Of a DNA stretch of 64,000 nt, positions 19,449 through 25,316 are shown piece by piece (within the stretch, counting starts at the first letter, position 1; the number at the start of each line of letters is the position of its first letter). The notes below the pieces were generated by a model, which was not told the DNA's origin, searched no databases, and saw only the letters and a list, made by a program, of their open reading frames with translations. The stretch spans positions 62,001 to 126,000 of the forward strand of contig JAILZL010000002.1 in assembly GCA_023512475.1 (NCBI GenBank). Reading direction: 5' to 3'. The stretch comes from Syntrophobacterales bacterium. GTDB lineage: Bacteria > Desulfobacterota > Desulfobaccia > Desulfobaccales > 0-14-0-80-60-11. A program made the position numbers and the translations under genes.

Positions 19449-20069
19449 TCACTCCACCGCCTCGTACCCCGCCGGGGTGATGGTGGCGAAGTGATAGGGA
19501 GGGCCCACCTCGTCTTTCACCGCCGCCATCTTTTCCAAAAACTCCCGGCACATGGCCAGCAGGGCCGCCAGGTCCTTCCCCGCCGCCAGCGCCTGAAACA
19601 GCCGCATCTCCATCCCCAGGTTCCGGGGCATGACCACCAGGTTGCCCACCGGCATGGGGTGCAGCGGCTCCCCTTCCTCGCTCCCCAGAAGCAGCAGCCG
19701 GTAGCCCGGCAGCGGCAGGCCGGGGCTGAAGCCCCCCAGGATGAAATAGATGCGTTTGAGCTCCTCCCCCCGGGGCGGGTGGACGGCCTGGTGCTTCACG
19801 ATCCCCTGACGCAGGAAGGCGGCGGCGAAATCAAAGACATCCTCCAGGTCCTCCAGTCCCCGGCGCCGGGAGATCTCCCGGGCCAGCACCTGGGAGAGGG
19901 GGACGCTCACCCCGGCGCCGCCGCTTATGATGGCGGAGTGGCGGGTCAAGGGGAAGAGCTTGGTGACCACGAAATACTCCGCCTTCTCCCCCTCCCGGAA
20001 GCGGGTGGCCCGGGAGTCGGTGGCGAAAAATAGCCCGTGTTCATTGTAGCCGGCCAGGGCCTGGGTCAT
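19449..20069 (-). CDS. Proteasome-like Ntn-hydrolase candidate
   Basis: A 206-residue protein without a firm family assignment. Its N-terminus (MTQALAGYNEHGLFFATDSRAT) looks like a proteasome beta-type subunit. Thr2 would be exposed by Met removal. Counting Thr2 as 1, Asp falls at 17, and a Lys in VVTKLFPL falls at 36, close to the canonical Thr1/Asp17/Lys33. SGGAG follows at the glycine position. The C-terminus (VGPPYHFATITPAG) resembles the last beta strand of the fold. Bacterial relatives would be HslV, Anbu or BPH. The gene overlaps the stop of the GH13 gene (ATGA) and ends the long minus-strand operon. The assignment rests on pattern only. Confidence 0.6.
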   Translation of the reverse strand: MTQALAGYNEHGLFFATDSRATRFREGEKAEYFVVTKLFPLTRHSAIISGGAGVSVPLSQVLAREISRRRGLEDLEDVFDFAAAFLRQGIVKHQAVHPPRGEELKRIYFILGGFSPGLPLPGYRLLLLGSEEGEPLHPMPVGNLVVMPRNLGMEMRLFQALAAGKDLAALLAMCREFLEKMAAVKDEVGPPYHFATITPAGYEAVE

Positions 20070-21376
20070 GGGGCAACCTCCAGGGGTGGCAGCGGCGGCA
20101 GCGCCGGGTGGAAAAAGAGCCGGATATCATAGGGGTCCAGCCGGAGAGGGCCTGCCGCCAGCCAGGGGGCCGGGTCCCGCAGGGGGGTAAGCTCCCGCCA
20201 CTCGCCGGGGCTGCCCCCCGCCGCCTCCGGGAAGGCCGGGATTTCGGCGACCTCCGGCCCGGGCTGGATGACCGCCAGCACCCGGCCCGGGCCCTGGTCC
20301 TGACTCTTCAGGAGGAGCACCGGCACCTCGCCTGGGGGGGTAAGGCGCACCTGCGGCCCCTCGGTGAGGAGCACCGGACAGGCCGCTTTCATGGCATGGG
20401 TGCGGGTGATGAACTCCGTGAGGTCGTAGGTGGGCTCCTCCCAGTCCTCGGGGCGGGTGTGCACCACGTGCAGGTGCTTCTGAAAACCGAACTCATAACC
20501 GATGGGCAGCATCAGCCCGGTGGAGAAGTAGGCGGCGAAAAGATACCGCTGCTTCGCCACCGCCGGGTTGCCGCCGCTTTCGGCGCTGAGGCGGGGGGTG
20601 TCGTGGGTCTCCGGGAAGCTCACCGAGGGGGCCACGTGCCGGAAGAGCTCATACTGCTCCAGGCACCAGGGCGCCTGAAAATCCCACCACTTGGAGCTGT
20701 TGTAGATGAAATCAAAGCCCGCCTCCGCCAGCTGGGTGCATTCCTCAATCCGGCACCCCAGGGTTTCGGCGAAGAACTGCACCTCCGGGTCCAGGCTTTT
20801 GGCCTCACTGATGAGGCGCTGCCAGAACCAGCCCGGAATCTTGTAGGCCGCATCGGCCCGGAAGCCCGCAAAGCCCAGGCGCAGGTAATGGGAGACCACC
20901 TGGTCCCAGAAGTGCAGCAGACCCTCGGGGTCCGGGACCGGCCAGTAGGCCAGCTCCGCCAGGTCCCCCCAGATGGTCACCCGGGTGGCGTCCGCCGGGT
21001 CAATGCAGCCCGGGTTTTTCACCGTGCCGTCGGGATTTTTGGCATACCACTCCGGGTGTTCCTGCACCAACGGCGCATCTATGGCGGTGTGGTTGATGAC
21101 CAGGTCCAGCATCACCCGAAGACCGTGTTCCCGGGCGGCGGCCACAAAGCCCTCCAGGGCCTCCTGGGGGTCGGAGCCGTCCTCCGGGTGGAAACGGGGG
21201 TCGATGCCGAAGTAATCCTTCACCGCGTAGAGGCTGCCGGAAAGCCCCGTCGTGTGGATGGGATTGAGGTAGATCCAGGTGCAGCCCAGGGACGCGATGC
21301 GGTCCAGGTGCGGATGCCAGCGGTTGATGGGGCCCGCGAGCAGCGGGAAGAGATTGTAGATCAGGGTGGGGGGCAT
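20066..21376 (-). CDS. Alpha-amylase family glycoside hydrolase (GH13)
   Basis: A 436-residue cytoplasmic GH13 enzyme without a signal peptide. The barrel motifs are visible: LDLVINHTAIDAP (region I), GFAGFRADAAYK with the nucleophile Asp (region II), FFAETLGC with the acid Glu (region III) and SFPETHDTPRL with the third Asp (region IV). A beta-rich C-terminal domain follows. Substrate is unclear: alpha-glucan hydrolysis or a transferase of the maltosyltransferase type are both possible. ATG 21376 has GAGG just upstream; GTG 21382 is also in frame. It lies 68 bases after the prenyltransferase gene, so it may share the menaquinone transcript by position only. Confidence 0.85.
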   Translation of the reverse strand: MPPTLIYNLFPLLAGPINRWHPHLDRIASLGCTWIYLNPIHTTGLSGSLYAVKDYFGIDPRFHPEDGSDPQEALEGFVAAAREHGLRVMLDLVINHTAIDAPLVQEHPEWYAKNPDGTVKNPGCIDPADATRVTIWGDLAELAYWPVPDPEGLLHFWDQVVSHYLRLGFAGFRADAAYKIPGWFWQRLISEAKSLDPEVQFFAETLGCRIEECTQLAEAGFDFIYNSSKWWDFQAPWCLEQYELFRHVAPSVSFPETHDTPRLSAESGGNPAVAKQRYLFAAYFSTGLMLPIGYEFGFQKHLHVVHTRPEDWEEPTYDLTEFITRTHAMKAACPVLLTEGPQVRLTPPGEVPVLLLKSQDQGPGRVLAVIQPGPEVAEIPAFPEAAGGSPGEWRELTPLRDPAPWLAAGPLRLDPYDIRLFFHPALPPLPPLEVAP

Positions 21377-21444
21377 GAACACCTCGTCCGGATAAGCTGA
21401 CCCCTGCTTTCACCCTCGCGCCGTTTCCGGAGCGGGGAGGGGGT

Positions 21445-22293
21445 TTAGGGCCACAGGCTCAGGAAAGTGGCGCCGCAGAGCACCAGTCCCACCAGGCCGT
21501 TTAAGGTGAAGAAGGCGTGATGCAGGCGGGAGAGATCCTCGGGGCTGAGGAGGTGGTGCTCCAGGAGCAGAATGACGCCGGCCAGCAGGGCCGCGGTGAG
21601 ATAAAGCGGCCCCAGCCCTGCCAGAAGGCCGGTGAGAAGAAAGCCCAAAGCCGCCGCCAGATGAAATCCCAGGGCCAGGCGCATGGCCCGGCGCCGCCCC
21701 AACTTCACCGGCAGGGAATGGAGCCCCACCTGGCGGTCAAAGTCCTCATCCTGGAGGGCGTAGAGCACATCAAAGCCCGCCACCCAGAAGACCACCGCCA
21801 GCCCCAGGACCACCGGCGTGAGGGCCGGTTCTCCCGTGACCGCCAGCCAGCCGGCGATGGGCGCCAGCCCCAGGGCCGCGCCCAGAAAAAAGTGGGAATA
21901 GGCGGTGAAGCGCTTGGTATAGGAATAAAAGAAGACCACTCCCAGGGCCACCGGCGAGAGCATCAGGCAGAGGCGGTTCAGCTGCCCGGCGGCGAAGATG
22001 AACAGGGCGGCGCTGGCCAGGGTGAAGAGCCAGGCGGCCCGGCGGCTGATGAGCCCCGCGGGCAGGGCCCGGTCCCGGGTGCGGGGGTTTTGGGCGTCAT
22101 AGTGATGATCCGCCAGGCGGTTGAAGGCCATGGCGGCGCTCCTCGCCCCCACCATGGCCAGGAGGATAAAGAAGGCCTGGCGGCCGCTGGGAAGCCCCCG
22201 GGCCCCCAACAGCGCGCCCATGAAGGCAAAGGGGAGGGCAAAGACCGTGTGCTGGATTTTGATCATGTCCAGGAGAGTCCACAGCCGCCGCAT
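21445..22293 (-). CDS. mqnP: UbiA-family prenyltransferase of menaquinone synthesis (MqnP-like)
   Basis: A 282-residue integral membrane protein with about eight hydrophobic segments. The two Asp-rich prenyl-diphosphate sites are present: NRLADHHYDAQNPRT (about residues 58-72) and DVLYALQDEDFD (about 176-187). The family attaches a polyprenyl chain to an aromatic acid. Next to mqnA/E/C and ubiX/ubiD genes, the substrate is most likely 1,4-dihydroxy-6-naphthoate, the role named MqnP. A 4-hydroxybenzoate role is less likely in this setting. ATG 22293 has AGGAGC upstream. Confidence 0.88.
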   Translation of the reverse strand: MRRLWTLLDMIKIQHTVFALPFAFMGALLGARGLPSGRQAFFILLAMVGARSAAMAFNRLADHHYDAQNPRTRDRALPAGLISRRAAWLFTLASAALFIFAAGQLNRLCLMLSPVALGVVFFYSYTKRFTAYSHFFLGAALGLAPIAGWLAVTGEPALTPVVLGLAVVFWVAGFDVLYALQDEDFDRQVGLHSLPVKLGRRRAMRLALGFHLAAALGFLLTGLLAGLGPLYLTAALLAGVILLLEHHLLSPEDLSRLHHAFFTLNGLVGLVLCGATFLSLWP

Positions 22294-22356
22294 CGTTGCT
22301 CCTGCCGGGTAAAAGATCTCAGGGTATTCCGGGCTCTGGCGGAGGCAGACCCCGGG

Positions 22357-22938
22357 TTATCCCCCGTCGCCGGACCCCTTCTCCCCCCAGCGGGGGGCAA
22401 GGTCGTGCTCCAGCCCCAGGTAATCCAGGATACGGCCCACAAACCCCCGGGCCAGGTCCGTCAGGGTGCGGGGGTGATGATAAAAGGCGGGCATGGCCGG
22501 GAAGATGGCCGCGCCGGCCTCCGCCGCGGCCAGCAGATTGCGCAGGTGCACCCGGCTTAAGGGCGTCTCCCGCACCGCCAGCACCAGGGGCCGACCCTCC
22601 TTCAGGGTCACCTCCGCCGCCCGGTGCACCAGATGGCGGGCGGTCCCCTGGGCGATGGCCGCCAGGGAGCCCATGGTGCAGGGGATGACCACCATGGCCC
22701 GCACCGCAAAGGAACCGCTGGCGATGGGCGCGAAGAAGTCCCCGGGAGAATACAGCACCGCCCGGGGGCCGGCCAGCTCCGGGAGGCTGAGGCCCAACTC
22801 GTGGCGCAGCACCTGCTCTCCGGCCTCCGAGGCCACCACATGCACTTCCAGTTCCGGGCGGCCCTGGAAGTAGGCCAGGAGCTCCCGGGCATAGAGCATG
22901 CCGCTGGCCCCGGTGATGCCGATGATGTAGCGCTCCAT
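22357..22938 (-). CDS. ubiX: UbiX-like flavin prenyltransferase
   Basis: A 193-residue flavoprotein that makes prenylated FMN, the cofactor of UbiD decarboxylases. The N-terminal IIGITGASGMLYA, SPGDFFAPIASGSF (family equivalent of the FMN-binding segment), VVIPCTMGSLAAIAQG and LVLAVRETPLSRVHLRN are typical. It sits directly between the ubiD-like and ubiA-like genes, which fits a menaquinone-specific UbiX (sometimes called MqnM). The start ATG 22938 has a G-rich ribosome site close by. Confidence 0.95.
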   Translation of the reverse strand: MERYIIGITGASGMLYARELLAYFQGRPELEVHVVASEAGEQVLRHELGLSLPELAGPRAVLYSPGDFFAPIASGSFAVRAMVVIPCTMGSLAAIAQGTARHLVHRAAEVTLKEGRPLVLAVRETPLSRVHLRNLLAAAEAGAAIFPAMPAFYHHPRTLTDLARGFVGRILDYLGLEHDLAPRWGEKGSGDGG

Positions 22939-23029
22939 CTCCCCCCTCCCGGAGACCGGCAGGGCTCAGGCGGCCCTGGGGTCGGTCCCTCTCCTGTGCG
23001 GCCGTCTGACGCCGGCTGCCCCTCCCGGA

Positions 23030-24478
23030 TTAATCCAGCCCCAGCTGGGGCCAGAGCTCATCCACTTTCTTCTGCACCTCGGGACTCATGACGATGACCT
23101 CGGGCCACTCCCGGGTGAAGCCCTCCTCCGGCCACTTGCGGGTGCAGTCAATCCCCATCTTGGAGCCGTAGTGGGGCAGGGGCGAGGCGTGATCCAAAGC
23201 GTCCACCGGGCCGTCCACGAAGACCACGTCCCGGCGGGGATCCACATTGTTCCCCAGCCGCCACAGCACCTGGCTCATGTCCTGGACGTCCACCTCCTTG
23301 TCGAAGATGAGGATGATCTTGGTGAACATCATCTGGCCCAGGCCCCAGAGGGCGTGCATCACCTTGCGGGCGTGGCCGGGATAGCGCTTGTCGATGCTGA
23401 TGCAGGCCAGGTTGTGGAACACCCCCTCCACCGGCAGGTTCATGTCCACGATCTCCGGCAGGGTCTTTTTGATGAGGGGGAGGAAGATGCGCTCCGTGGC
23501 CTTGGCCATGAAGCAGTCCTCCATGGGGGGGCGCCCCACGATGGTGGCGGGATAGATGGGCCGGCGCCGCATGGTCACCGCCTGCACGTGAAACACCGGA
23601 TACTCGTCGGGGAGGGAATAGTAACCGGTATGATCCCCGAAGGGGCCCTCCACCCGCCGCTCCCCCGGCTCCACCCAGCCCTCCAGGACGATCTGGGAGT
23701 TGGCCGGCACCTGGAGGGGCACGGTGAGGCAGGGCACCATCTCCACCGGCTCCTGCCTGAGGAAGCCCGCAAAGATGATCTCGTCGATATCCTCGGGCAA
23801 AGGGGCGGTGGCGGCGTAGGTGACCGCAGGGTCCGGGCCGATGACCACCGCCACCGGCAGCCGCTCGCCTCTGGCCTCTGCCACCCGGTAGTGCTGGGCC
23901 CCCCCTTTGTGGCGGTGCCAGTGCATGCCGGTGGTGTTTCTGTCATAGACCTGCATGCGGTACATGCCCACATTGCGGCGGCCGGTCTCCGGGTGATGGG
24001 TGATGACCACCGGCAGGGTGATGAAGGGGCCGCCGTCCCCCGGCCAGCAGGTGAGGACCGGGATCTTCCCCAGATCCACCTCCTCCCCCTGCCAGACCAC
24101 CTCCTGGCAGGGGGCCCGGGAGACCGTTTTGGGGAAGATGTTGGCCAGCCGGGCCAGCTTGGGGAGGAGCTTCAGCTTCTTGATGAGGGTGTCCGGGGCC
24201 TCCGCCTCCAGGAAGGTGAGGATCTCCCGGGCGATATCCTCCAGGCTCTCCACCTCCAGGGCCAGGCACATGCGCCGCAGGGAGCCGAAGGCGTTCATCA
24301 AAACCGGCATGTCATAGCCGGGCACGTTTTCGAACAGCAGGGCCGGGCCGCCCCGTTTGCAGACCCGGTCGGTGATCTCGGTGATCTCCAGATACGGGCT
24401 CACCGGCGCAGCAAGGCGCTTCAGCTCCCCTTTGGCTTCCAGAACCTCGATGAAATGCTGCAGGCTGCGATAGCCCAT
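23030..24478 (-). CDS. UbiD-family decarboxylase, probably menaquinone-specific (MqnL-like)
   Basis: A 482-residue prenylated-FMN decarboxylase. Family signatures include RMCLALEVESLEDI, VWQGEEVDLGKIPVLTCW, GMHWHRHKGGAQHYRVAE, EGPFGDHTGYYSLPDEYPVFHV and YPATIVGRPPMED. The Glu-Arg-Glu region is within the central part. It would remove the carboxyl group from prenylated dihydroxynaphthoate in the futalosine route. ATG 24478 has AAGGAGA upstream; an in-frame extension of 39 residues to 24595 overlaps mqnA and is rejected. Its UbiX partner follows. Confidence 0.92.
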   Translation of the reverse strand: MGYRSLQHFIEVLEAKGELKRLAAPVSPYLEITEITDRVCKRGGPALLFENVPGYDMPVLMNAFGSLRRMCLALEVESLEDIAREILTFLEAEAPDTLIKKLKLLPKLARLANIFPKTVSRAPCQEVVWQGEEVDLGKIPVLTCWPGDGGPFITLPVVITHHPETGRRNVGMYRMQVYDRNTTGMHWHRHKGGAQHYRVAEARGERLPVAVVIGPDPAVTYAATAPLPEDIDEIIFAGFLRQEPVEMVPCLTVPLQVPANSQIVLEGWVEPGERRVEGPFGDHTGYYSLPDEYPVFHVQAVTMRRRPIYPATIVGRPPMEDCFMAKATERIFLPLIKKTLPEIVDMNLPVEGVFHNLACISIDKRYPGHARKVMHALWGLGQMMFTKIILIFDKEVDVQDMSQVLWRLGNNVDPRRDVVFVDGPVDALDHASPLPHYGSKMGIDCTRKWPEEGFTREWPEVIVMSPEVQKKVDELWPQLGLD

Positions 24479-24491
24479 GGGTCTCCTTCCG

Positions 24492-25316
24492 TTATCCGAC
24501 AAACCGCAGTTCCGGCACCTCTTCCAGCTGTCCCAGGCGGTGGAGATAGCGGTAAAAGGCGTACAGGCCCTCCTGCTGCCGGGGCCCCAGGTCATAGTTC
24601 AGGCGTCGGAAGTAGCCCTCCAGCTCCGCCGGGCTCAGCTCCACCCGGGCGGCGGCCAGACGGCAGATGTCCGGCAGGTGGGCCAGCCCCAGGGCCTTGC
24701 TGTGGTGCAAGAGCCGGACCAGCTCCCGGACCTGCTCCGGGGCAGTGTGGGCGATCTCCCGCCGCACCGCCCAGACGCCGAAGACGAAGGGCAGGCCGGT
24801 GAGTTCGTGCCAGGCCCGGCCCAGGTCCAGAAAATAGGGGTAGCGGCCGCTGGCCCGCAGGCGCAGGGCCTCATCCCCGATGGCCAACAGGGCGTAGACG
24901 CCCTCCGGTAGCTCGGTGGTCACTGGCGCGGTGCGGTAACACGGCCGGGCCCCATATAGCTCATAGAGGAGGATGCGGGTCAGGGCGGCGGAGGTGGCGG
25001 AGGCCTCGCTCAGGCGCACCTCCCGGCCGGTGAGGCGGTGAAAGGGCACCCGGCTGAACAGGAGCACGCTCCCCACATCGCCTTCAGTGCTGATGGACAG
25101 ATCCGGCACCAGGTAATACTGCCGGAAATTGCGGGCGTATTCCACCGAGGAGACGGCGCTTACGTCCACCTCACCGGCGGCCAGCCGGGCGTTGAGCTCC
25201 GCCGGGGTGCCGGAGAGTACCGCCAGCCCGTTTTGCGGGAAACCCATTTCCAGGGCGTAGTAGATGGGCAGGACGTTGATGTAGCGGATCCGTCCCAGGC
25301 GCAGGCTGATGGTCAT
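24492..25316 (-). CDS. mqnA: Chorismate dehydratase MqnA
   Basis: A 274-residue periplasmic-binding-protein-fold enzyme without a signal peptide. It makes 3-enolpyruvyl-benzoate from chorismate, the first step of the futalosine route. The N-terminus LGRIRYINVLPIYYAL is typical (usual form GxIxYLNxxP). VDVSAVSSVEYARN, LSEASATSAALTRILL and ALLAIGDEALRL follow. The start ATG 25316 overlaps the deaminase stop (ATGA) and has GGAGGGGG upstream. Confidence 0.93.
   Translation of the reverse strand: MTISLRLGRIRYINVLPIYYALEMGFPQNGLAVLSGTPAELNARLAAGEVDVSAVSSVEYARNFRQYYLVPDLSISTEGDVGSVLLFSRVPFHRLTGREVRLSEASATSAALTRILLYELYGARPCYRTAPVTTELPEGVYALLAIGDEALRLRASGRYPYFLDLGRAWHELTGLPFVFGVWAVRREIAHTAPEQVRELVRLLHHSKALGLAHLPDICRLAAARVELSPAELEGYFRRLNYDLGPRQQEGLYAFYRYLHRLGQLEEVPELRFVG

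Follow-up and report, generated by a model that had tools for sequence, protein, structure and literature searches.

The window analysed here, i.e. the whole stretch of 64,000 nucleotides, carries on its minus strand a short gene (19449-20069) whose product, searched alone, has no significant match in Pfam, NCBIfam or PDB; weak matches to PadR, POT1 and Bbp19 were dismissed as chance. An earlier note, made from the letters only, had proposed a proteasome-like Ntn-hydrolase. Is this gene indeed a relative of the proteasome, is its product an active enzyme, and does it work alone or with partners? The reading that we favour, with a probability of about 0.72, is that its product is an active N-terminal threonine hydrolase belonging to the proteasome-like family, and most likely to the PHD cluster (Proteasome Homolog of Deltaproteobacteria). 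This enzyme would mature by Met1 removal and cleave or transfer amide bonds. The features are listed below, A, B and C being the three groups of the family tree presented further on.

19449..20069, minus strand: proteasome-like Ntn-hydrolase gene, class A (Thr1 nucleophile), 206 aa (open reading frame, family profile, AlphaFold, Foldseek, dN/dS)
20064..20066, minus strand: codon of Thr1, the nucleophile, presumably exposed on Met removal (Thr in 43/43 class A orthologues)
20016..20018, minus strand: codon of Asp17, same number as in the proteasome (Asp in 43/43 class A)
19959..19961, minus strand: codon of Lys36, equivalent of proteasome Lys33 (Lys in 43/43 class A, 6/6 class C, 0/20 class B)
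19917..19919, minus strand: codon of Gly50, equivalent of the oxyanion Gly47 (invariant in all classes; Lys +14)
20077..20081, minus strand: Shine-Dalgarno GGAGG, 7 nt upstream of the hydrolase ATG (sequence)
20066..21382, minus strand: GH13 family alpha-glucan enzyme, 438 aa, upstream neighbour (Pfam; nearest solved structures; adjacency conserved in one family)

The open reading frame is a real gene under purifying selection, with a dN/dS of 0.16-0.20 (Nei-Gojobori) against three relatives. It is 206 codons long, starts with ATG-ACC (Met-Thr), and its beginning shares the four bases ATGA with the GH13 stop. Of 69 non-redundant relatives, 61 have a Shine-Dalgarno core before their MTQ/MGQ/MSQ start, compared to 15.8 on average, and 26 at most, when the upstream regions were shuffled. 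This placement directly at the start supports a translation beginning just before the Thr, and hence the absence of a propeptide, as the earlier note had anticipated. It is an established rule that methionine aminopeptidase removes Met when the second residue is small. On this protein, the enzyme would remove Met1 and expose Thr1, so that a propeptide would be unnecessary.

Numbered from the Thr after Met, the hydrolase motifs are Thr1, Asp17 (within TDSRAT), Lys36 (within TKLFPL) and S48-G49-G50-A51-G52 (SGGAG). The Met-Thr start, Asp17, downstream Lys and SGGAG to which the earlier note had drawn attention are thus all in place, and Thr1, Asp17, Lys36, Gly50 and Gly52 are invariant in the 43 class A sequences. 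The catalytic Lys has number 36 rather than 33 as in the proteasome, with three extra residues preceding it, and the distance from Lys to Gly in class A, 14 residues, is exactly that separating Lys33 from Gly47 in the proteasome. Equivalents of Thr1/Ser1, Asp17, Lys33 and Gly47, by which the proteasome-like family is recognised, are therefore present in 43/43 class A members. This active-site pattern is not due to chance, because its four catalytic positions are invariant throughout class A, the dN/dS is as low as given above, and the family alignment holds from 87% down to ~28% identity.

Sequence evidence for the fold came from the family rather than from the single protein. When a profile built from 21 members was compared to PDB, the best matches were proteasome beta subunits (E 7.6e-6), and the 60 matches listed were proteasome subunits and Anbu; with a 34-member profile, the alignment to proteasome beta was full-length. 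Five of the 21 members individually matched Pfam PF00227 (best 4.9e-5), so that the sequence relationship to proteasome subunits (PF00227 superfamily) is seen via the family profile, and not via the window sequence alone. The AlphaFold model of the hydrolase (pLDDT 92.8, pTM 0.90) arranges its elements as a beta subunit does: strands, H1 (55-68), H2 (75-96), strands, H3 (151-162), H4 (167-184) and two last strands. Its best Foldseek matches in PDB were Mycobacterium and eukaryotic proteasome chains (E 2.7e-8), with query-normalised TM scores mostly of 0.63-0.73, i.e. the proteasome beta fold. Structure prediction, which had been set beforehand as a possible refutation of the Ntn-hydrolase proposal, thus returned this fold and not a different one. 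The family would represent a conserved, uncharacterised threonine hydrolase missed by single-sequence database searches.

In 2021, Fuchs, Alva and Lupas described 22 new clusters of proteasome-like proteins, PHD included, without propeptides, informative gene contexts or a co-occurring AAA+ partner (PMC8665760). Proteasome homologues of Deltaproteobacteria having neither propeptide nor AAA+ partner have therefore already been described (PMC8665760). Our hydrolase is probably PHD (represented by OGP72033.1) or a close relative, as judged by taxon and anatomy. Both share the taxon, a proteasome-like fold with H1-H4, the Thr1/Ser1-Asp17-Lys33-Gly47 site, the absence of a propeptide and the absence of any reported AAA+ partner; the description of PHD differs in that it mentions no inactive sister clade and no informative gene context (PMC8665760). 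No later functional study was found in the open-access papers searched.

The beta subunits of bacterial 20S proteasomes (Mycobacterium/Rhodococcus), which are the best structural matches, share the fold and the register of the catalytic triad; they differ from the hydrolase in having a propeptide, and identity in the structural alignments is only 12-19%. In addition, the loops equivalent to those of the auxiliary Ser129 and Ser169 in the proteasome would carry in the hydrolase an invariant Pro148-Arg149 and a conserved Pro190-Pro191, as placed by predicted topology, a point against the favoured reading. No alpha/beta gene set and no Mpa/ARC/PAN ATPase is found nearby in the window, and the PF00227 matches of the genome are only one HslV-like and one WPH-like gene. 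HslV, a Thr protease found in bacteria, belongs to this superfamily as well, but none of the 21 members had an NCBIfam HslV match, and no hslU/HslU neighbour is present in the window. Anbu is of the same superfamily, again without a known ATPase, and gives weak matches to the family profiles (5lox, E 0.0032-0.029); its C-terminal H5 coiled-coil extension is absent from the hydrolase model, whose last element is a strand ending at residue 205.

Two further proteasome-like genes were noticed in the same genome (L002:1501-2034 and L001:1501-2013, on G000:C13 and C44). One, on G000:C44, is a separate HslV-like gene; the other encodes about 236 aa with a Met-Thr start and a long C-terminal charged stretch, and resembles the WPH cluster. 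Aligning the family profile by hhalign with these two proteins as single sequences, comparisons that are weak, gave no meaningful alignment to the HslV-like one. Counting the paralogue described below, this 2.8-Mb genome encodes four proteasome-like proteins.

Of the 395 genomes sampled from the phylum (Desulfobacterota/"Deltaproteobacteria"), 46 have homologues of the hydrolase, about 12% of the sampled species, and so do 22/22 genomes of its own bacterial family. Named relatives carrying them are Desulfobacca, Desulfobaccales, Syntrophobacteraceae, Syntrophaceae and unplaced Deltaproteobacteria MAGs. No homologue was found among phages, plasmids and viral contigs, and a phage, plasmid or viral origin was rejected on that ground. 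A tree of 61 sequences falls into class A with Thr1 and Lys, the degenerate class B, and class C with Ser1 and Lys. B (bootstrap 100, SH-aLRT 99) and C (100/100) are strongly supported, A only at 83/71. Class C, found in other families of the phylum, has Ser1, Asp17 in an ADRR(V) motif and the Lys, in single copy per genome; its assignment covers 6 genomes (L029, L032, L098, L099, L100, L102), five more that have one weak match each being left aside. Thr (or Ser) and Asp are thus retained in classes A and C, where the loss of these residues, named by the earlier note as evidence against its proposal, was not seen. Column 131 of the alignment is Glu/Asp in all A and C sequences, and Lys or Arg in 18/20 B, the remaining two having Ser and Thr, respectively. 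It is therefore acidic in the lysine-bearing classes and basic in most of B, shifting with the loss of the catalytic Lys; from the alignment, residue 131 is a candidate accessory active-site residue.

What is new here is this ancient degenerate sister clade beside the active form. The genome of the window has its own class B paralogue (L033, G000:C52:671-1288, plus strand), with a Met-Gly start and Arg replacing the catalytic Lys; it is kept across relatives and lies elsewhere in the genome, beyond what the earlier note could see. Class B members have Gly, Ser, Ala, Asn or Pro in position 1, and none of the 20 tallied has the catalytic Lys (18 Arg, 2 Trp); L119, read outside this tally, has Cys. 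Asp17 is mostly retained and the Gly50 equivalent is invariant. Class B is not decaying, its dN/dS being 0.05-0.29, and the A and B profiles align along their whole length (E 6e-59).

Among the genomes read in the 395-genome sample, A is present in 30, B in 19 and both in 15, leaving 15 genomes with A only and four with B only; a family profile search revealed no hidden class A in these four. Three further genomes of the window's family, outside this sample, also have both. Co-occurrence is significant by Fisher's test (p about 1e-15), a value overstated since the test ignores shared ancestry. The two-copy genomes that were read always had one A and one B, and the two genes were never adjacent. 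HlyD-type membrane-fusion and ABC ATPase genes, and then permease-like genes, follow class B in the window's family, a context that was discarded as a conserved one because it is not kept outside this family.

Do A and B then form one assembly? The loss of catalytic residues throughout a conserved sister clade suggests, speculatively, that they could be active and inactive subunits, like beta and alpha of the proteasome. Like class B, proteasome alpha is a paralogue without catalytic Thr and Lys beside an active form; unlike alpha, class B has no N-terminal H0 extension and is not always present with A. Moreover, B is not an obligate partner of A, since the genes are not adjacent and each class occurs without the other in the genomes counted above. 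Regulators acting independently, each in its own pathway, would account at least equally well for the genomes that have only A or only B. We hold it unlikely that Desulfobacterota evolved independently a second two-subunit proteasome-like system, in which A (active, Thr1) and B (degenerate, without Thr/Lys and, in most members, of opposite charge at 131) would stem from one ancient duplication and co-assemble, in parallel to the true beta/alpha split.

As to the enzyme itself, Thr1 would be activated by Asp17 and Lys36, with Gly50 shaping the oxyanion hole, and we infer that it cleaves, or transfers, amide bonds in peptides or proteins. An oligomer is likely because the ring-building helices H1-H4 of the proteasome are present in the model; speculatively, it might include the class B paralogue as a non-catalytic subunit. 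A possible alternative, though on the unlikely side, is that of a specific amide-bond enzyme acting alone, as a monomer or dimer, e.g. a connectase-like protein ligase or a processing peptidase, and not a compartment-forming protease. Connectase illustrates that monomers which are not proteases exist within the proteasome-like family (PMC8665760). Moreover, 15 sampled genomes keep class A in the absence of class B, and the hydrolase has no ATPase neighbour in the window, as the earlier note had remarked in contrasting it with HslV. However, connectase lacks H1-H2 (PMC8665760), whereas the hydrolase model retains all four helices and shows no insertion above, or covering, the active site.

Could the function rather be read from the neighbouring GH13 gene, to which the earlier note had described the hydrolase as coupled? 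The GH13 protein retains the usual catalytic motifs GFRADA, FFAETLG and ETHDTPR, as read from its sequence, and its nearest solved structures are GlgE and maltogenic amylases. It could be a partner of the hydrolase in alpha-glucan metabolism, the latter controlling for instance GH13 turnover. The GH13 gene is indeed directly upstream of class A in all 20 family genomes having a GH13 orthologue, with the 4-base overlap in the window, and malQ (GH77) precedes it in most relatives from genera other than that of the window. Downstream, these relatives often have a phosphoglycerate mutase-like gene or a branched-chain amino-acid transporter. But the adjacency is limited to this one bacterial family, in which two genomes have the hydrolase and no GH13 orthologue that could be found. 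The sister family has 4 genomes holding both genes, and in 4/4 these are unlinked (different contigs or far apart). In the sample, 7 genomes have the GH13 orthologue without detected hydrolase, and class A neighbours in other lineages are unrelated (ftsK, glutamyl/glutaminyl-tRNA synthetase, methyltransferase, UbiA and AsmA-like genes). The GH13 enzyme is therefore no general clue to function, coupling to it was discarded as the key to the hydrolase, and a partnership in alpha-glucan metabolism is improbable. The earlier proposal thus stands for the fold and the active site, and is unsupported for the GH13 coupling as it was worded.

Directly upstream of GH13 in the window (21445-25316, minus strand), UbiA, UbiX, UbiD and MqnA-like genes, as read from the sequence, stand in a row, probably a futalosine-type menaquinone cluster.

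Finally, it is very improbable that the hydrolase is a non-enzymatic structural or regulatory protein merely keeping the fold: clade B does persist despite plain loss of its catalytic residues, but Thr1, Asp17, Lys36 and Gly50 remain invariant in class A even though large parts of the protein have drifted to less than 30% identity.

Evolutionary biology has yet to explain how the proteasome acquired active beta subunits and inactive alpha ones. If the separate split between active and degenerate forms is true, this family would offer a simple system, of ~206 residues and without propeptide or ATPase, for testing inactive subunits as assembly or gating partners.
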